Positions 2,542 through 9,527 of a stretch of 64,000 bases of DNA are shown piece by piece. The DNA is from Microbacterium sp. Root166 (lineage in GTDB: Bacteria > Actinomycetota > Actinomycetes > Actinomycetales > Microbacteriaceae), in the NCBI RefSeq assembly GCF_001427145.1, contig NZ_LMGL01000004.1:186001-250000 (forward strand). Reading direction: 5' to 3'. The notes below the pieces were generated by a model, which saw nothing but the letters and a program-made list of their open reading frames with translations, was not told the origin of the DNA and made no database searches. Positions within the stretch are counted from its first letter, which is position 1, and each line of letters starts with the position of its first letter. A program made the position numbers and the translations under genes.

Positions 2542-3183
2542 TCAGGAGAGCGTTCCCGCGCTGATCGCGAAATCTTCTTCGGTGCGGATGCCGGTGCGCA
2601 GCGCGATCTCGAGCGCACGGGCTATCTCGGCCAGCGGCAGGGACGCGGCATCCGCTGACGGAGCGTGTTCGGCATCCCATGGGACGTGGACGAACCCGGC
2701 GCGCATGCCGGGGCGCTGCGCGCCGGCGTGGACCGCGGCGAAGAACGCGTGGTTGCAGACGAACGTGCCCGCCGAGTGCGAGACCTCGCTCGGGATCCCC
2801 GCTGCCGCGATGTCGCGTGCGATCGCCTTGACCGGGATCGTCGCGAAGTAGGCCGCCGGTGCGCCGTCGACGCTCGGCCCGTCGACGGGCTGCATGCCGG
2901 CGTTGTCGGGGATGCGCGCATCCGTGAGGTTGACCGCGACGCGTTCGACGGAGATCACCGCCCGGCTGCCGGCCAGGCCCGTGGCGACCACGAGATCGGG
3001 GGAGTGCTCCGCGATGAGGCGCACGAGCTCCGCGGCGGCGCCGCCGAACGTGACCGGAAGCACGGCCGTCACGAGGTGCTCGGGTCCCGTCCAGCTCGAT
3101 GCGACGAGGCGCACGGCATCGCCCGAGGGATTCGAGCCATCACCGCCGAAGGGTTCGAAGCCCGTCAGCAGGATGGTGGTCAC
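2542..3183 (-). CDS. pcp: Pyroglutamyl-peptidase I (peptidase C15)
   Basis: This enzyme removes N-terminal pyroglutamate from peptides in the cytoplasm. At 213 residues it has the usual family length. The catalytic triad of C15 is visible: Glu in VERVAVNL, Cys in AGTFVCNHAFF and His in FVHVPWD. The N-terminus ILLTGFEPFGGDGSNPS is typical. Its GTG start overlaps the stop of the upstream TetR gene by 4 bases, so the two are probably co-transcribed and translationally coupled. A TAGCCT box 6 nt before the GTG could also give a separate leaderless transcript. Confidence 0.95.
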   Translation of the reverse strand: MTTILLTGFEPFGGDGSNPSGDAVRLVASSWTGPEHLVTAVLPVTFGGAAAELVRLIAEHSPDLVVATGLAGSRAVISVERVAVNLTDARIPDNAGMQPVDGPSVDGAPAAYFATIPVKAIARDIAAAGIPSEVSHSAGTFVCNHAFFAAVHAGAQRPGMRAGFVHVPWDAEHAPSADAASLPLAEIARALEIALRTGIRTEEDFAISAGTLS

Positions 3184-3806
3184 GCCTCCAGGCTACGACT
3201 CCCGGCGCGGCCCGGGTCGCCCTGCCGGCTGCTCTCGAGGCCGCCGACCAGCAGCGCGACGCCGAACGCGAACTCGGCGCCCGGGGTGTCGTCGCCGGGA
3301 TCCGCGGTCTCCTCACGCACCCCCAGGCTGTCGTACTGCATCCGCTGCTGCTCGTGCGAGACGTGGCCGAGGATGAAGTGGAGCAGGGTCGTGGTCGCAC
3401 GTCGCACCGTCACGTCGTCGAACCCCCCGGCGGCGACGGCCGTGCTGAGCCGGTCGCGGGCGGCCGTCGAGCCGAGCCCGAGGGCCAGGGTGCTGGCGAC
3501 GACCTCGGCGCCGTCGCGATAGGCGAGCAGTGCGTCGCGGAGGGCGAAGGCGCGGGCAGCGACCTGTTCGCTCCAGTCCGAATCGCGCGACGTCGGTTCC
3601 GGATGCTGCGTGACGATGCGGTCGGACAGCTCGGCGAGCAGGCTCTGCTTGCTCGGGAAGTGCCAGTACAGAGCGCTGGGCTGCACCTCGAGCGCCGCCG
3701 CGAGCCGGCGCATGGTGAGGTCTGGCAGGCCGTAGTCGTCGAGGATGCGCAGCGCCTCGCGCGCCACGTCGTCACGCGAGTGCCGGCCGTTTCCTGTTCT
3801 CGTCAC
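3180..3806 (-). CDS. TetR-family repressor of the biotin locus (BioQ-like)
   Basis: A 208-residue TetR-type regulator. The N-terminal helix-turn-helix (LTMRRLAAALEVQPSALYWHFPSKQSLLAEL, about residues 28-58) is typical; the C-terminal ligand domain is poorly conserved. It diverges from bioY, with two palindromic operators in between. In Corynebacterium and mycobacteria the TetR protein BioQ represses biotin genes through TGAAC-N3-GTTAC-type sites; the operators here have the matching half-site TGAAC. I therefore infer BioQ function. An upstream in-frame extension exists, but the GTG at 3806 follows a TATAGT box by 6 nt and begins just before the HTH, so I prefer it. Confidence 0.85.
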   Translation of the reverse strand: MTRTGNGRHSRDDVAREALRILDDYGLPDLTMRRLAAALEVQPSALYWHFPSKQSLLAELSDRIVTQHPEPTSRDSDWSEQVAARAFALRDALLAYRDGAEVVASTLALGLGSTAARDRLSTAVAAGGFDDVTVRRATTTLLHFILGHVSHEQQRMQYDSLGVREETADPGDDTPGAEFAFGVALLVGGLESSRQGDPGRAGSRSLEA

Positions 3807-3812
3807 GGTCTG

Positions 3813-3820
3813 ACTATAGT
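3813..3820. promoter_or_regulatory. Bidirectional -10 element between bioQ-like gene and bioY
   Basis: The 8-bp palindrome ACTATAGT reads TATAGT on both strands. On the minus strand it ends 6 nt before the repressor GTG (leaderless). On the plus strand it can serve the bioY operon, with RNA starting inside the operators. One element may thus drive both directions. Confidence 0.55.
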
Positions 3821-3847
3821 GAACGCTGTTCAGGTGAACGGTGTTCA
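3820..3847. promoter_or_regulatory. Two tandem palindromic operators (BioQ-type)
   Basis: Two perfect inverted repeats, TGAAC-GCT-GTTCA (3820-3832) and TGAAC-GGT-GTTCA (3835-3847), lie 15 bp apart, in the only gap between the TetR gene and bioY and next to the shared -10 element. The half-site matches the known BioQ motif. A repressor bound here would block both promoters, giving autoregulation as well as control of biotin uptake. Confidence 0.85.
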
Positions 3848-3877
3848 GGAGTTCGCCACGAGAGAAGAGTCCACCCG

Positions 3878-4522
3878 ATGACCGATACCGCCACGACCGT
3901 CGCCGCCCCCAGCCGGACGCGATCGCTCGACGCCACCGACCTCGCACGGGTCGCGGTGTTCGCGGCGATCATCGCCGTGCTGGGCCTGCCTGGCGGATTC
4001 ACCGTCTTCGGATCCGTGCCGATCACGGCACAGACTCTCGGTGTCATGCTCGCCGGCGCGATCCTCGGCCCATGGCTCGGTGCGCTCTCGGTCACCGTCG
4101 TGCTGACCCTCGTCGCAGTCGGCCTGCCGCTCCTGGCCGGTGGCCGCGGCGGCGTCGCCGTCTTCCTCGGGCCGTCGGCCGGCTACCTCCTGGGCTGGAT
4201 CGTCGGGGCGATCGTGATCGGCCTCATCGTGCACGCCGGAGGCCGCAGGCCGGTGATCTGGCGCACGTTCGCCGGTGTCGTCACCGGCGGCATCCTCGTC
4301 GTCTACGCGATCGGCATCCCGGTGCAGAGCCTGGTGACCCGGCTGCCGCTGGCAGAGACCGCGCTGACGAGCCTCGTGTTCCTGCCCGGCGACCTCGTCA
4401 AGGCGGTGCTCGCGACGGCCATCGTCACGACGCTCGTGAAGGCCTATCCACGGGCGTTCCGGCGCGAGTGGGTGCAGCGACCCGCCGCCCGGAACGCGGC
4501 CACGCCGACGCCTGTGCCGTGA
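3878..4522 (+). CDS. bioY: Biotin ECF transporter S component BioY
   Basis: BioY is the membrane protein that binds biotin and, with BioM (ATPase) and BioN (transmembrane coupling unit), imports it. The 214-residue protein has six hydrophobic segments and the family motifs VPITAQTLGVMLAGAILGPWLGALSV and GRGGVAVFLGPSAGYLLGW. It is first in a run of genes that overlap by a few bases (bioY-ligase-thiolase-bioM-bioN-CHY protein), about 30 nt after the tandem operators, so it is expected to be repressed when biotin is plentiful. The stop overlaps the next GTG start by 4 bases. Confidence 0.97.
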   Translation: MTDTATTVAAPSRTRSLDATDLARVAVFAAIIAVLGLPGGFTVFGSVPITAQTLGVMLAGAILGPWLGALSVTVVLTLVAVGLPLLAGGRGGVAVFLGPSAGYLLGWIVGAIVIGLIVHAGGRRPVIWRTFAGVVTGGILVVYAIGIPVQSLVTRLPLAETALTSLVFLPGDLVKAVLATAIVTTLVKAYPRAFRREWVQRPAARNAATPTPVP

Positions 4523-5610
4523 TCACCCCGCTGGACGGCGATCGCCCCGATCTGCTGGAGCACCTCCGCGCGGCACGCGCGGCCGGCGACGTGCCGCTCG
4601 TCGGTGACGCGCGCTGGCCCGCGACACAGTGGGAATCGCTGACGGCGCTCGCCGCGACGGCAGAGCTTCCCTCGGATGCCGCGTGGGCGACGCTCACCTC
4701 CGGCAGCAGCGGTCGCCCGCGCATCGTGATCCGCAGTGCCGATTCGTGGGCGGCGTCCTTCGGGTCGATCGCCGCGCTCCTGGATGCCGGGCCCGAAGAC
4801 GTCGTCCTGCTGCCCGCTCCGCCCGCCGCCTCGCTGAGCCTGTTCTCGCTCGCTCACGCGCTGGACGGTGGGCCGCAGCCGGCGCTCGGCCTCTCAGCGG
4901 CTGCGTCGGCCACGTGTCTGCACGGCACCCCCGAGGGGTTGCGGGCCGTGCTCGACGCGGGCGCTCCGACGACCCTGCGGACCGCGCTGATCGGAGGCTC
5001 GCATCTCGACGCGTCGCTCCGGCGACGGGCGGCGGATGCCGGCATCCGCGTCGCCGCCTACTACGGCGCCGCCGAGCTGTCGTTCGTCGCGGTCGACCAT
5101 GGCGACGGCTTGGAGCCGTTCCCCGGAGTCGAGCTCGACGTCCGGCAGGGCGAGCTCTGGGTCCGTTCGCCGTACGTGGCCTCCGGGTACGTCGGCGACG
5201 GGGGACCGCTGCGCCGCGACGGTGGATGGGCGACCGTGGGCGACAGGGCGGAGCTCACCGGCGGGCGGCTCCGCCTGCTCGGCAGAGCGGATGCCGCCAT
5301 CCTGAGCGCGTCGGCGACGATCGTTCCCGAGGAGGTCGAAGAGGTGCTGCGCGGCGTTCCCGGCGTGCGCGACGCCGTCGTCTTCGGCGTGCCGCGGGAG
5401 CGGGTCGGAGCGCTCGTGGGGGCATTCCTCGAGCTCGAAGGCGATACGCCGGTGACCCTGCGGGAGCGCGTCGAGTCCGATCTGGCGCCCGCCCACCGCC
5501 CGAGGCAGTGGTTTGCGGGTCAGCTTCCCCGCACCTCGTCGGGCAAGCCTTCGCGCGCGGAGGCTGCACGACGGGCACTCGCAGGGGAGGTGCGCCGCCT
5601 TGTCGTCTGA
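4519..5610 (+). CDS. AMP-dependent acyl-CoA synthetase-like protein of the biotin operon
   Basis: A 363-residue member of the adenylate-forming (ANL) superfamily. It shows the phosphate-binding loop LTSGSSGRPRIV (near residue 57), the YYGAAELSFV core and WATVGDRAEL motifs, and the C-terminal catalytic lysine Lys343 in RTSSGKPSR. It is about 140 residues shorter than ordinary acyl-CoA ligases and lacks most of the N-terminal domain. The open frame continues upstream through bioY, but GTG 4519 overlaps the bioY stop and is the sensible start. Its place inside bioYMN resembles Bacillus yhfT beside a bioY paralogue, so it may activate a biotin-related carboxylate; the substrate is unknown. Confidence 0.85.
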   Translation: MITPLDGDRPDLLEHLRAARAAGDVPLVGDARWPATQWESLTALAATAELPSDAAWATLTSGSSGRPRIVIRSADSWAASFGSIAALLDAGPEDVVLLPAPPAASLSLFSLAHALDGGPQPALGLSAAASATCLHGTPEGLRAVLDAGAPTTLRTALIGGSHLDASLRRRAADAGIRVAAYYGAAELSFVAVDHGDGLEPFPGVELDVRQGELWVRSPYVASGYVGDGGPLRRDGGWATVGDRAELTGGRLRLLGRADAAILSASATIVPEEVEEVLRGVPGVRDAVVFGVPRERVGALVGAFLELEGDTPVTLRERVESDLAPAHRPRQWFAGQLPRTSSGKPSRAEAARRALAGEVRRLVV

Positions 5611-6724
5611 CCAGCATCCCGTCATCGTCGCCGCACGGCGCACTCCGATCGCCACGCGCGGCCGCGCGCTCGCGGCTCTGGGACTGGCCGACCTCGCGGC
5701 GCCGACGATCCGCGCCGCGCTCGCGGACGCCGCCGCGGCGACCGGAGCGCCGGTCAGCGTCGCCGATGTGCTCCTCGGCAACTGCATGGGCCCGGGCGGC
5801 AACCCGGGTCGTGTCGCGGCGCTCGCCGCAGGGCTCGGCACCGCTGTGCCCGGTGGGACGGTGGATCGCCAGTGCGGCAGCGGCCTGGCCGCCGTGCTCG
5901 ACGCGGTGACCGCCATCCGCGCCGGCGACGTGCGCATCCGGGTCGCCGGTGGTGTCGAAAGCGCCTCGACCGCGCCGGTGCGCAGCGTCGACGGGGTGCC
6001 GTACGACCGAGCGCCATTCACGCCCCCCGGATTCCCCGACCCCGGCATGACCGACGCCGCCGAGCAGCTGGCCGCGCACGACGGCATCTCCCGCGCCCGG
6101 CAGGACGCGCACGCCGCCCGCAGCCACGCCCGGGCGCGAGCAGCCGTCGCAGCCGGTCGCTTCGATGCCGAGCTCGTGCCGCTCGCGGGACTGCAGCATG
6201 ACGACGCCATCGGCGGCGCGGAGCCCCTGCTCGCCCGGCTCCCCGCACTCTTTCCCGGCGGCTCGCTCACCGCGGGCACCTCGACCCGGATCGGCGACGG
6301 CGCGGCCGTCGTCGTCGTCGCACCCGGCGGGACAGCGCCGGGACTCGCAGTGCGCGCCTCGGCGTTCGTCGGCTGCGACCCCGCGCTCCCCGGGATCGGC
6401 GCAGCGCCGGCCATCCACTCGGCCCTGCGCTCCGCCGGGCTGACGGTGGCGGATGTCGCGGCCTTCGAGATCGTCGAGGCGTTCGCGGCGCAGAGTCTCG
6501 GCGTGCTCGACCGGCTCGGCATCGCCGAGGACGATCCGCGCGTGTGCGCCGACGGTGGAGCGCTGGCGCTCGGGCACCCGTGGGGGGCAAGCGGCGCCGT
6601 GTCGCTCGTCCGGCTCTTCAGCAGGCTGGTGCGCGCCGGCGCCCCCGCGGGCACGATCGGCGTGGCCGCGGCATCCGTCGGTGGAGGCCTGGGAGTCGCG
6701 GCCGTCGTGGAGGTCGTCCGGTGA
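5600..6724 (+). CDS. Thiolase-family protein of the biotin operon, atypical active site
   Basis: A 374-residue thiolase-fold protein. The nucleophile Cys92 is present (DRQCGSGLAAV) and the histidine motif GHPWGASG (His326) is kept. The second catalytic cysteine of thiolases (CxGGGxG) is Ser359 here (ASVGGGLG), and the asparagine of NEAFAAQ is Val292 (VEAFAAQ). Ordinary beta-ketothiolase chemistry is therefore doubtful; acyl transfer or hydrolysis is possible. The start is TTG 5600, overlapping the ligase stop and preceded by a strong AGGGGAGG. It resembles Bacillus yhfS, which sits beside a ligase and a bioY paralogue. Its role in biotin precursor use is inference. Confidence 0.83.
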   Translation: MSSDQHPVIVAARRTPIATRGRALAALGLADLAAPTIRAALADAAAATGAPVSVADVLLGNCMGPGGNPGRVAALAAGLGTAVPGGTVDRQCGSGLAAVLDAVTAIRAGDVRIRVAGGVESASTAPVRSVDGVPYDRAPFTPPGFPDPGMTDAAEQLAAHDGISRARQDAHAARSHARARAAVAAGRFDAELVPLAGLQHDDAIGGAEPLLARLPALFPGGSLTAGTSTRIGDGAAVVVVAPGGTAPGLAVRASAFVGCDPALPGIGAAPAIHSALRSAGLTVADVAAFEIVEAFAAQSLGVLDRLGIAEDDPRVCADGGALALGHPWGASGAVSLVRLFSRLVRAGAPAGTIGVAAASVGGGLGVAAVVEVVR

Positions 6725-7404
6725 GCATACGGATGGATGCCGTGCGCGTGCGGCTCGGGGATGCCGACGTGCTGAGCGACGTGTCGCTGTCGCTCGACGC
6801 CCGGACCATCGCCGTGGTCGGCGAGAACGGCTCAGGCAAGTCGACGTTCGCCCGCGTGATCGGCGGATTGGTGCCGCGGGCGTCCGGCGACCTGAGCGTC
6901 CTGGGCCTCGATCCCCGCACGCAGGCGGCCGAACTTCGGCGGCGTGTCGCGCTCGTCTTCAGCAACCCCGACGCGCAGATCGTGATGCCGACGGTCGCCG
7001 AGGACGTGGCGTTCTCGATCCGCGCCGATCGGCTCGGAGCCGCCGAGACCGCGCGGCGCGTGTCGGACGCGCTCGAGCGATTCGGCCTGAGCGCTCTGGC
7101 CGACCGCGCGTCGCACGAGCTGTCGGGCGGTCAGAAGCAGCTGCTCGCCCTGTGCGGGGCCTTCGTGCGACGTCCGGAGCTCGTGATCGCGGACGAGCCA
7201 ACCGCGTACCTCGACGCCCGCAACGCGCGCCTCGTCGCGGACCATCTCTTCCACGACGCCGGACACCGGCTCGTCGTGGTGACGCACGATCTCATGCTGG
7301 CCCAGCGGTGCGACGTCGCCGTGCTGTTCGAAGGGGGTCGCCTGGCAGCGGTCGGGGAGCCCGGCGAGATCGTCGCCCGGTACGAGGCGGCGCTGGGGTG
7401 CTGA
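6721..7404 (+). CDS. bioM: Biotin ECF transporter ATPase BioM
   Basis: A 227-residue ABC ATPase with Walker A GENGSGKST, Q-loop (FSNPDAQIV, as in ECF/CbiO-type ATPases), signature LSGGQKQ, Walker B LVIADEPT and switch histidine in VVTHD. It energises BioY together with BioN. The GTG start overlaps the thiolase stop, and the 3' end overlaps bioN. An open frame continues upstream into the thiolase gene, but homology begins with SIRMDAVRVRLGDADVLSDVSL. Confidence 0.95.
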   Translation: MSIRMDAVRVRLGDADVLSDVSLSLDARTIAVVGENGSGKSTFARVIGGLVPRASGDLSVLGLDPRTQAAELRRRVALVFSNPDAQIVMPTVAEDVAFSIRADRLGAAETARRVSDALERFGLSALADRASHELSGGQKQLLALCGAFVRRPELVIADEPTAYLDARNARLVADHLFHDAGHRLVVVTHDLMLAQRCDVAVLFEGGRLAAVGEPGEIVARYEAALGC

Positions 7405-8009
7405 CGCTCTACCGTCCCGGCAGCGGCCGGCTGCACCGGCTTCCCGCCGGTCCCAAGATCGTGCTCGTGCTGGTCGCGGTGCTCGCCGTCTCGCTGCTGC
7501 CCTCATCGTGGTGGGGCGCCGCCGTCGCCGCCGCCGCGGCGGTCGTGGCCTATGCAGCGGCAGACCTCCGCGACGGGATGCTGGGCATGCGAGAACTGGG
7601 CCGTCAGATCTGGGCGGTGCGCTGGGTCGTCGTGCTGATCGTCGCGGGGCAGCTCGTCTTCCTCGGGCCGGAGCCCGCGGTCGCGAACGCCGCACGGATC
7701 ACCGCCGCGCTGGTCATCGCCGCGCTGCTCGTCCTCACGACGCGCACGACGGACTTGCTCGACGCGGTGGAGCGCGGACTGGGCCCGCTGCGCCGGCTCG
7801 GACTCGATCCGCAGCGGGCGGCGCTGCTCCTGGCCGTGACGCTCAACACCGTGCCCGTGCTCGCCCGTCTCGCCCGCGAGGTGCGGGACGCCCAGCGGGC
7901 ACGAGGAGCCCGCGGCGGGCTGCGCACGTTCGTCGTCCCCTTCCTCGTCATCGCCCTCAAGCACGCTGATCAGCTCGGCGACTCGCTGACGGCCCGGGGC
8001 GTGCGATGA
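7398..8009 (+). CDS. bioN: Biotin ECF transporter T component BioN
   Basis: A 203-residue membrane protein with four to five hydrophobic segments and a C-terminal coupling region (EVRDAQRARGARGG, then DQLGDSLTARGVR) containing the Ala-Arg-Gly motifs that T components use to contact the ATPase. It completes a BioYMN transporter. GTG 7398 lies inside the end of bioM; the long in-frame upstream extension is out-of-frame bioM and thiolase sequence. Confidence 0.93.
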   Translation: MLTLYRPGSGRLHRLPAGPKIVLVLVAVLAVSLLPSSWWGAAVAAAAAVVAYAAADLRDGMLGMRELGRQIWAVRWVVVLIVAGQLVFLGPEPAVANAARITAALVIAALLVLTTRTTDLLDAVERGLGPLRRLGLDPQRAALLLAVTLNTVPVLARLAREVRDAQRARGARGGLRTFVVPFLVIALKHADQLGDSLTARGVR

Positions 8010-8332
8010 GCTCCGATCGCCCGCACGTCCACGGCCCGACCATCGATGGCCAGACGCGCTGCATCCACTACGGCACGGCTCTGGACGTGATCGCGATCGA
8101 GTTCGCGTGCTGCCGGCGGTTCTATCCGTGTCACCTGTGCCACGCGGCGGATGCCGGTCACGCGGCGGAGCAGTGGCCCGTCTCACAGAGGGCTGAGCGC
8201 GCGATACTGTGCGGTGTATGCGGGCACCGGCTGACCATCGACGAGTACTCGAGCGCCGGCTCCTGCCCGGCGTGCGCCGCGCCGTTCAATCCCGGCTGCA
8301 CGCTGCACTGGAACCTGTACTTCGACGCGTGA
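8006..8332 (+). CDS. CHY-type zinc-finger protein
   Basis: A 108-residue protein rich in Cys and His: TRCIHYG, CCRRFYPCHLCH, LCGVCGH and CPACAAPFNPGC give the pattern of the CHY zinc-finger family, able to bind two or three zinc ions. Small bacterial members have no assigned function. The ATG overlaps the bioN stop (ATGA), so it is the last gene of the biotin operon by position. Whether it has any role in biotin metabolism cannot be told from sequence. Confidence 0.88.
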   Translation: MSSDRPHVHGPTIDGQTRCIHYGTALDVIAIEFACCRRFYPCHLCHAADAGHAAEQWPVSQRAERAILCGVCGHRLTIDEYSSAGSCPACAAPFNPGCTLHWNLYFDA

Positions 8333-8345
8333 TCGCGGCGGCGGC

Positions 8346-9527
8346 ATGACGGCCGTGTCATCGCGCGGTCCGATGGCCCGCCCCGCCGCCGCCGGGGTCG
8401 TCACGGGCCTCGTCGGGTTCACCAGCGCGTTCGTGATCGTCCTCGCGGGCCTCGAAGCGGTCGGCGCGACGCCGGCGCAGGCAGCGAGCGGGCTGCTCGC
8501 CGTGTGTCTCACGATGGGGATCGCGTGCATCGTCCTGGCGTGGCGGTATCGGATGCCGATCACCGTCGCCTGGTCGACGCCCGGGGCGGCCCTCCTCGCC
8601 GCCACCGGCCTGGTCGAGGGCGGCTGGCCCGCCGCGATCGGAGCCTTCCTGGTCGTCGGAGCGCTGATCGTGCTGACCGGGCTGTGGCCGCAGCTCGGCC
8701 GCTTCATCGCCCGCATCCCGCCGTCCATCGCTCAGGCGATGCTGGCCGGTGTGCTGCTGCCGCTCTGCCTGGCGCCCATCAGCGGCATCGTCCTGAACCC
8801 GTGGGGCGTCGTGCCGGTCGTCCTGACGTGGCTCGTGTTCGTGCGGGTGGCACCTCGCTGGGCGGTGCCGCTGGCGTTCGTCGCGGCCGCGATCGTGGTG
8901 GGTGTCACGCTCGTGCGGGACGGGGCATCCGTCGATCCCGCCCTTCTGCTGCCCCGCGTCGAGCTGACGATGCCCACCATCACCCTCGGGGCGATGGTGA
9001 GCATCGCGATCCCGCTGTACATCGTCACCATGGCCTCGCAGAACGTGCCGGGCGTGGCGATCATGCGCAGCTTCGGCTACGAGGTCCCGTGGCGTCCAGC
9101 CATGGTGGTCACCGGACTCGGCACGATGGTCGGGGCACCGGCCGGCGGCCACGCCATCAACCTCGCCGCCATCAGCGCTGCGCTCGCCGCCGGTCCCGAG
9201 GCCGATGAGGACCCGACGCGGCGGTGGATCGCCGGCGTCTCGGCGGGGGTGTCGTACCTCGTACTCGGCGCCGCGTCGGCGGCATTCGCCGCGCTCGTGC
9301 TGCTCGCGCCGCCCGGGGTGATCCCCGCGGTGGCCGGACTCGCGCTCTTCGCGGCCTTCGGATCCGCGGTGCACCAGGCGATCGACGACCCGCGCGAGCG
9401 GATGCCCGCCGTCGTGACGTTCCTGGTGGCGGCCTCGGGCATCGCGATCCTCGGTGTGAGCGCCGCCTTCTGGGCGCTGATCGCCGGGCTGCTCGTGCGC
9501 ACGGTGCTGCACGCCGGGCGCCGCTGA
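8346..9527 (+). CDS. BenE-family benzoate/H+ symporter-like transporter
   Basis: A 393-residue integral membrane protein with about twelve hydrophobic segments. Motifs of the BenE family are visible: WSTPGAALLAATG near 77-89, PPSIAQAMLAGVLLPLCLAPI and the region around GAPAGGHAINLAAISAAL. BenE members are proton symporters for benzoate or related substrates; no aromatic-degradation genes are nearby, so the substrate is open. It starts 13 nt after the CHY gene and may extend the biotin operon. Confidence 0.88.
   Translation: MTAVSSRGPMARPAAAGVVTGLVGFTSAFVIVLAGLEAVGATPAQAASGLLAVCLTMGIACIVLAWRYRMPITVAWSTPGAALLAATGLVEGGWPAAIGAFLVVGALIVLTGLWPQLGRFIARIPPSIAQAMLAGVLLPLCLAPISGIVLNPWGVVPVVLTWLVFVRVAPRWAVPLAFVAAAIVVGVTLVRDGASVDPALLLPRVELTMPTITLGAMVSIAIPLYIVTMASQNVPGVAIMRSFGYEVPWRPAMVVTGLGTMVGAPAGGHAINLAAISAALAAGPEADEDPTRRWIAGVSAGVSYLVLGAASAAFAALVLLAPPGVIPAVAGLALFAAFGSAVHQAIDDPRERMPAVVTFLVAASGIAILGVSAAFWALIAGLLVRTVLHAGRR

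Follow-up and report, generated by a model that had tools for sequence, protein, structure and literature searches.

A ligase and thiolase-like pair beside biotin uptake in distantly related bacteria suggests an undescribed biotin-salvage step

In Corynebacterium glutamicum, the biotin transporter genes bioYMN belong to the regulon of the TetR-type repressor BioQ, whose predicted site is TGAAC-N3-GTTCA, according to the available passages of the source (PMC3398298). In Bacillus and Staphylococcus, passages from three papers place the ligase and thiolase homologue genes yhfT/yhfS under BirA along with bioY (PMC11089781, PMC6391492, PMC6323116), and RNA-seq of Sinorhizobium meliloti shows a joint shift of the BioY gene (log2 -3.3), the AMP-binding protein gene SMc00965 (-2.6) and the thiolase gene SMc00966 (-2.2) (PMC12445080). 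The transporter, BioQ and the presence of yhfT/yhfS in biotin regulons are already known. Here, we analysed a window of 64,000 nucleotides from Microbacterium sp. Root166 (contig NZ_LMGL01000004.1, positions 186,001 to 250,000), in which frames and profile searches with Pfam and NCBIfam models resolved the region 3180-8332 into a BioQ-like TetR gene reading away from the series bioY, acid-coenzyme A (CoA) ligase, thiolase-like enzyme, bioM, bioN and a CHY gene. Judged by its sequence, this locus is an energy-coupling factor (ECF) biotin-uptake operon that has BioQ-type boxes and, inserted after bioY and ahead of bioM, a conserved module of two enzymes. The presence of this ligase and thiolase-like pair beside biotin uptake in distantly related bacteria suggests an undescribed biotin-salvage step, and we consider with some confidence that the pair would carry out a dedicated, biotin-regulated acyl-CoA step and not beta-oxidation.

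The operon and its two enzymes

The substrate-binding subunit for biotin is encoded by bioY at 3878..4522 on the plus strand (PF02632, 120 bits against a cut-off of 25, 8.7e-35), followed on the same strand by the short AMP-forming acid-CoA ligase of 363 amino acids (4519..5610; AMP-binding domain PF00501 and C-domain PF13193) and the thiolase-fold enzyme (5600..6724; PF00108 and PF02803). The ECF ATPase gene bioM (6721..7404, plus strand; PF00005, with ECF_ATPase_1 TIGR04520 as the best NCBIfam model at 2.2e-49, below its cut-off) and bioN for the ECF transmembrane T subunit (7398..8009, plus strand; CbiQ PF02361) come next; by these profile matches, the S (BioY), A (BioM) and T (BioN) subunits of an ECF biotin transporter are encoded together. 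A CHY zinc-finger gene (8006..8332, plus strand; PF05495) is the optional last member. From the start of bioY at 3878 through the end of the CHY gene at 8332, successive genes overlap by 4, 11, 4, 7 and 4 bp. A first-pass annotation, made by a model from the letters and open reading frames, had described this gene set, the overlaps, the divergent TetR gene and the coordinates, all of them correctly.

The thiolase-like enzyme differs from ordinary thiolases in its active site. Available passages on the Zoogloea thiolase describe Cys89 as the nucleophile, Asn316 and His348 as holding the Claisen enolate, and Cys378 as the base (PMC3406046). In the window protein, Cys92 corresponds to Cys89 and His326 to His348, while Val292 stands at the position of Asn316 and Ser359 at that of Cys378. 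Cys89 was present in 80/80 and His348 in 79/79 readable pair thiolases of an 80-row alignment, and both were kept in every readable row elsewhere. The Cys378 position held Ser in 69 and Ala in 10 of the 79 readable rows of this alignment, Ser or Ala in 15/15 pair thiolases of a smaller alignment (the two sets share the window sequence and one contig), and Gly or Ala at 14/14 plasmid loci; a Cys one residue before this position occurred in 8/15 rows of the smaller alignment and 1/79 of the larger. Val occupied the Asn316 position in 79/79 readable rows of the 80-row alignment; elsewhere this residue was Thr, Gln, Met or a kept Asn (2/15 in the smaller alignment, 7/14 at the plasmid loci). All four residues were kept in 5/5 of the other thiolase genes found in the genome. 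In a tree, a branch with support 100/99 split 36 pair thiolases from six ordinary ones, the latter being long-branched, and actinobacterial and alphaproteobacterial pair members were interleaved.

The structural model of this protein (pLDDT, the predicted local distance difference test, 89.9) contains the full thiolase fold. The nearest fold was 1ulq (Z 51.5, root-mean-square deviation (rmsd) 2.3, 358 residues aligned), the matches listed were all thiolases, with Z ~50-51 and 32-40% identity, and the sequence passed the general thiolase model TIGR01930 (261.6 bits against a cut-off of 240.55). From its residues, the protein should form an acyl-cysteine, and acetyl-CoA thiolysis or condensation appears unlikely. 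The loss of Cys378 therefore speaks against beta-oxidation. The earlier proposal that the pair does not serve fatty-acid degradation thus gains a mechanistic footing, since the base is missing from every readable pair member, and labels such as 'thiolase, fatty acid beta-oxidation' on genes of this kind are probably wrong.

The ligase looks like a working adenylate-forming enzyme, with the residues for adenylation and thioesterification all in place. The motif YYGA[ASV]ELSFV was found in all rows of a nine-row alignment, and the catalytic E of this motif, a D, an R and a C-terminal K were conserved in 81/81 ligase rows; the ligase of one alphaproteobacterial locus, L224, did not show the searched motif. 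The model of the window ligase was nearest to Bacillus subtilis MenE (5x8f; Z 29.7, rmsd 3.5, 356 aligned), and its PDB neighbours were nearest among MenE-type and aryl-acid ligases, with fatty-acyl ligases also among the matches. Fold comparisons of the two proteins gave thiolases and adenylate-forming enzymes, respectively, among the matches listed and no pointer to the substrate. Assignment of the ligase as MenE itself was rejected, as NF005877 scored 103.7 bits against a cut-off of 345 and the genome has a MenE-like gene at another site, next to apparent men genes.

The repressor gene bioQ is placed at 3180..3806 on the minus strand (TetR_N PF00440 and TetR_C_1 PF02909), in a frame that is open up to 3947 and for which GTG 3806 was adopted as the start. 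The best PDB matches of its product (5xs9, 5yek and 5yej, E ~3e-36) are labelled merely TetR family transcriptional regulator; we take them to be BioQ of Mycobacterium smegmatis. The 71-bp gap between the TetR and bioY starts contains two perfect TGAAC-N3-GTTCA palindromes 15 bases apart, TGAACGCTGTTCA at 3820-3832 and TGAACGGTGTTCA at 3835-3847. Only three exact sites exist in the whole 3.46-Mb genome, two at bioQ/bioY and one elsewhere, and the same pattern read backwards gave 0 sites. The third site (C1:998021) was rejected as marking a further regulon member, since it sits within a coding frame and was taken as chance. The boxes, the PDB neighbours, the published motif and the BioQ-like genes at relatives' loci all agree with the BioQ-type repressor named in the first-pass annotation. 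Judging from the boxes and the relatives, such a repressor would control the operon through these predicted operators. On either side of the operon, a pyroglutamyl peptidase gene (2542-3183, minus strand) begins within the last 4 bp of the BioQ-like gene and may share one transcript with it, and a BenE-type benzoate transporter gene (8346-9527, plus strand), which starts 13 bp past the CHY gene, may be the last gene of the operon.

Linkage of the pair to biotin uptake

Among 58 relatives, 11 carried a close ligase. The thiolase gene followed it in 9/9 of those genomes whose contig permits inspection, and bioY lay within 5 kb of the ligase in 9/11; one contig ends at the ligase, and in G039 bioY is ~35 kb off. 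Two genomes of the genus (G002 and G005) have a different ligase (28-31% identity), divergent from bioY and with no thiolase match, and were not counted. In a phylum sample of 396 genomes, the eight new genomes with top ligase scores (at least 227 bits) had bioY nearby in six cases and the thiolase in six, one contig ending before bioY. None of the seven lower matches that were opened in this sample (at most 193 bits) lay beside BioY or a thiolase.

A scan of named genomes returned 433 ligase relatives, of which the best 80 loci, Actinomycetota by their titles, were analysed; as several come from the same genus, they are not independent. Genera represented include Microbacterium, Leifsonia, Paeniglutamicibacter, Promicromonospora, Brachybacterium, Kribbella, Kineosporia and Micromonospora. 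The thiolase gene adjoined the ligase in 79 of these 80 loci (the contig of the 80th ends), 74 had bioY no more than 5 kb upstream or 6 kb downstream, and the pair was wedged between bioY and bioM in most. The exact gene order of the window was found in 28/80 and a CHY gene in 39/80. A BioQ-like gene was present in 59/80 (58 divergent, one on the same strand), and none was found nearby in the other 21. The exact BioQ box occurred in 68 of the 74 bioY-bearing loci, often as the same 15-bp tandem and in 67 of those 68 within ~130 bases of the estimated bioY start; six of the 74 had no exact box. Among the six pairs unlinked to bioY, 4/6 keep exact BioQ boxes 53-202 bp upstream and two have none. 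Clustering of open reading frames from the actinobacterial loci recovered the genes of the operon, artefacts from antisense frames and groups spanning no more than 11 loci, and these counts, which rest on crude gene calls, were not used. Two genomes of one actinobacterial family have a ligase of the same kind downstream of bioN. At L122 this is an additional copy, whereas at L125 no other copy was seen and the thiolase directly follows bioY.

Plasmid records were searched with both proteins, giving 194 (thiolase) and 187 matching records, from which 14 regions were hand-picked for variety, so that proportions among them are not rates. One of the 14 is from the actinobacterium Nonomuraea, with the order bioY-ligase-thiolase-bioM-bioN, and the other 13 are alphaproteobacterial. 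bioY was present in 11 of these 13, from Azospirillum (2), Sinorhizobium (2), Shinella, Microvirga, Paracoccus (2), Pseudosulfitobacter, Marivivens and Salipiger. Gene order varied: mostly bioY came first and then the pair, and in some Rhodobacterales the pair was divergent or lay ahead of bioM-bioN-bioY. Additional enzymes accompanied the pair, namely a nitroreductase-family protein (nearest PDB entry 3gr3) in 5/5 Rhodobacterales loci (L216, L217, L221, L223 and L224), and a hotdog thioesterase with a medium-chain reductase in 5/6 Hyphomicrobiales loci. The PDB neighbours of the Rhizobium reductase were 3gms, then mitochondrial 2-enoyl thioester reductases. A thioesterase together with an enoyl-type reductase fits the building up of an acyl chain rather than its breakdown. 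A BioR-box pattern had no match in the alphaproteobacterial loci. Two Rhizobium plasmids (L214 and L222) carry reductase, thioesterase, ligase, thiolase and LysR genes without bioY, and a related set stands beside bioMNY in Sinorhizobium and Shinella. On the Paracoccus plasmid locus L224, a malonyl-CoA synthase gene (7762-9276) follows the pair beyond the nitroreductase gene, which is of interest if the thiolase uses malonyl-CoA.

The link to Bacillota rests on papers and on NCBIfam control genomes, in which PRK06690 and PRK07638, presumably standing for YhfS and YhfT, each passed the cut-off in exactly 1/14. PRK06690 was the nearest equivalog model of the window thiolase and PRK07638 the second-best model for the window ligase, both far below their cut-offs (247.6 of 498 bits and 98.7 of 518 bits, respectively); for the Azospirillum pair, PRK07638 ranked first among the models and PRK06690 first among the equivalogs. 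The claim with which the locus had been flagged, that the pair recurs beside biotin transport in distant phyla under different regulators, is borne out by loci from Actinomycetota and Alphaproteobacteria and, through the passages cited above, by Bacillus and Staphylococcus.

Host biotin metabolism and the function of the pair

In the genome that holds the window (assembly 99.8% complete), the best bioB match scored 39.6 bits against a cut-off of 225, bioD had no match, and the best bioA match reached 303.8 bits against 405, none passing. The known biotin route, sought as bioB, bioD and bioA over cut-off, was thus not found, bioF, bioC, bioH and bioW lying outside the search. bioB over cut-off was found in 0/35 genomes of the genus in the sample, and among the 11 ligase-bearing genomes of the 58 relatives only G039 has it. 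BioY has a single match in the genome, and a biotin-protein ligase passed its cut-off; the idea that the pair is a new biotin-attaching enzyme replacing BirA was dropped, as this ordinary ligase is present. From its gene content, the host is likely a biotin auxotroph. Because bioB, bioD and bioA are not over cut-off, BioY has one match and the biotin-protein ligase is kept, the operon is probably the cell's biotin supply.

Biotin shortage would lift BioQ, so that the importer, the ligase and the thiolase-like enzyme would be induced together. The ligase would convert the carboxylate of an acid to its CoA thioester, and the thiolase-fold partner would accept the acyl group on Cys92, with His326. 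Without the Cys378 base, which makes or breaks the bond to acetyl-CoA, no ordinary thiolase action is expected; the acyl group might then be passed to another acceptor, or be extended with a decarboxylating donor such as malonyl-CoA. The most likely candidate substrate would be a biotin vitamer whose side chain is altered or cut short, such as bisnorbiotin. BioY would import it and the pair would restore it to usable biotin, the reductases being drawn from general metabolism or, in some Alphaproteobacteria, from the locus itself. In humans, bisnorbiotin is described as a major natural metabolite of biotin, common in urine and serum (PMC9106636); no report of it together with bacteria was found in the literature searched.

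Our leading explanation is that a biotin-like acid is salvaged by way of its CoA ester when biotin runs short, a serious possibility that falls somewhat short of probable, and we give the same tentative standing to a biotin vitamer as the substrate of the pair. The salvage of a biotin-related carboxylate suggested in the first-pass annotation may thus apply. Side-chain extension in particular is more doubtful. In its fullest form, the proposal would be a widespread, undescribed vitamer salvage in which bisnorbiotin-like biotin is imported by BioY and activated with CoA, and in which the valerate side chain is rebuilt by the thiolase-fold enzyme through decarboxylating or acyl-transfer chemistry, with help, in Alphaproteobacteria, from either a nitroreductase-family flavoprotein or the combination of an enoyl-thioester reductase with a thioesterase; as a whole we think it rather unlikely, at about the level of the extension step. 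Repair of a vitamer side chain is nevertheless favoured because the module travels with the biotin importer, because the cell lacks the known biotin synthesis route as searched, and because of the enoyl-type reductase and thioesterase of rhizobia.

Several observations weigh against vitamer salvage. Nothing in the sequence identifies biotin as the substrate. The replacement of Asn316 by Val in the actinobacterial branch weakens any condensation, decarboxylating or not, and favours plain acyl transfer. The actinobacterial operon contains no ketoreductase or dehydratase, and across the 80 actinobacterial loci there was no thioesterase or nitroreductase of the alphaproteobacterial kind and only one weak reductase match. 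The pair is also optional, with the ligase in 3/35 genomes of the genus and BioY in 31, and 2/8 of the high-scoring ligase genomes of the phylum sample (G317 and G197) have no thiolase nearby, G197 having no bioY either. The first-pass annotation had named homologues lying mostly away from biotin genes as its refutation. Among the 80 closest ligase relatives this check came out in its favour, as 74 are near bioY, but both Rhizobium loci opened have the ligase and thiolase without bioY, and of the 194 plasmid records matched by the thiolase, 110 are Rhizobium. Finally, the passages available tie B. subtilis yhfT to surfactin production, which suggests fatty-acid substrates.

The strongest rival starts from that last point. 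In a biotin-sparing lipid supply, acetyl-CoA carboxylase would be starved of biotin, the ligase would activate scavenged fatty acids, and the thiolase-like enzyme would either transfer the acyl group from CoA to a different carrier or serve to prime fatty-acid synthesis. Oleate can spare biotin, the loss of Cys378 fits pure acyl transfer, and the reported role of YhfT in surfactin production, in a pair that the excerpts place in the BirA regulon, points the same way. Against it speaks the fact that, among the 80 relatives, most have the pair lodged between bioY and bioM, as does a short ligase whose nearest PDB relatives are MenE-type and aryl-acid ligases, although fatty-acyl ligases also match; overall, we consider this explanation rather unlikely. 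A trapping of imported biotin is less credible still: the ligase would make biotinyl-CoA, and the thiolase-like enzyme would pass on or release the biotinyl group. Such chemistry needs just Cys89 and His348, both of which are kept, and the ligase adjoins the importer, but the cell would pay ATP during starvation and, given a biotin-protein ligase over cut-off, trapping through attachment to protein is already available.

Degradation, in which the pair would belong to beta-oxidation of biotin or another acid, seems very improbable. A ligase and a thiolase are the two ends of beta-oxidation, and databases annotate the alphaproteobacterial pair thiolases with fatty acid beta-oxidation; set against this are the missing Cys378 in every readable pair member and the expectation that a pathway degrading biotin would not be switched on when biotin is short. 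That the pair provides pimelate, or lets desthiobiotin be used, for making biotin is hardly credible, and for this organism it is already refuted in large part. A pimeloyl thioester is indeed required to make biotin, and B. subtilis, according to the passages available, has the pair and also bio synthesis genes in the same BirA regulon, but with no bioB or bioD over cut-off here it is very unlikely that the ligase and thiolase feed pimelate or desthiobiotin into the known route. The pimelate-like precursor supply offered in the first-pass annotation fails on the missing bioB and bioD and on a bioA below cut-off, and only 1/11 ligase genomes (G039) has bioB over cut-off; desthiobiotin use fails as an explanation because it needs bioB. 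That two housekeeping genes fell into the operon by chance, as a patchy presence in 3/35 genomes of the genus might suggest, is refuted by the gene order, overlaps and operator boxes that many genera share and by linkage in two phyla, since the same gene order recurs widely.

Significance and comparison with known systems

The literature searched, which excludes most subscription journals and any regulon database, gave no earlier account of three features: the occurrence of the pair with bioY across Actinomycetota and Alphaproteobacteria, BioQ boxes at pairs unlinked to bioY, and a thiolase base that is consistently lost. Beyond the yhfS/yhfT reports, the only mention there of the pair with biotin uptake, in the passages available, was a table (PMC12445080). 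In our judgement, little is known of how auxotrophs live on biotin breakdown products, and a pair that has biotin-type operators, lies beside biotin uptake in two phyla here and in a third by literature, and includes a thiolase without its defining base points to an unnamed step of vitamin metabolism. Defined genes in tractable bacteria (S. meliloti SMc00965/SMc00966 and B. subtilis yhfT/yhfS), together with a short list of substrates, make the question directly testable.

Among single enzymes, thiolases of the Zoogloea ramigera type share the fold, Cys89 and His348 with the window protein, in which Asn316 and Cys378 are replaced. MenE (o-succinylbenzoate-CoA ligase) is likewise a short ligase and gave the best NCBIfam match (NF005877, an actinobacterial MenE model) and the best model match (5x8f), but the motif of the window ligase is YYGAAELSFV and not TYGSTETAGG. 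Among gene systems, YhfT/YhfS of Bacillus and Staphylococcus are alike in having, in the excerpts available, a ligase and a thiolase homologue in one regulon with bioY; the repressor here is BioQ-like, not BirA, and the ligase here is without the N-terminal part. S. meliloti resembles the window in a BioY, an AMP-binding protein and a thiolase family protein, which the available passages link to NolR and for which those passages report no function (PMC12445080). The S. meliloti pSymB locus has bioM-bioN-bioY and the thiolase, with the intervening ligase stretch missing from the gene table, and adds a thioesterase and a reductase. The bioYMN/BioQ regulon of C. glutamicum, as described in the passages available, shares bioY, bioM, bioN, the TGAAC-N3-GTTCA site and a TetR-type BioQ with this locus (PMC3398298); in contrast to that regulon, bioQ here is divergent from bioY, the only other exact box in the genome lies inside a coding frame, and a ligase and a thiolase-like gene stand between bioY and bioM.

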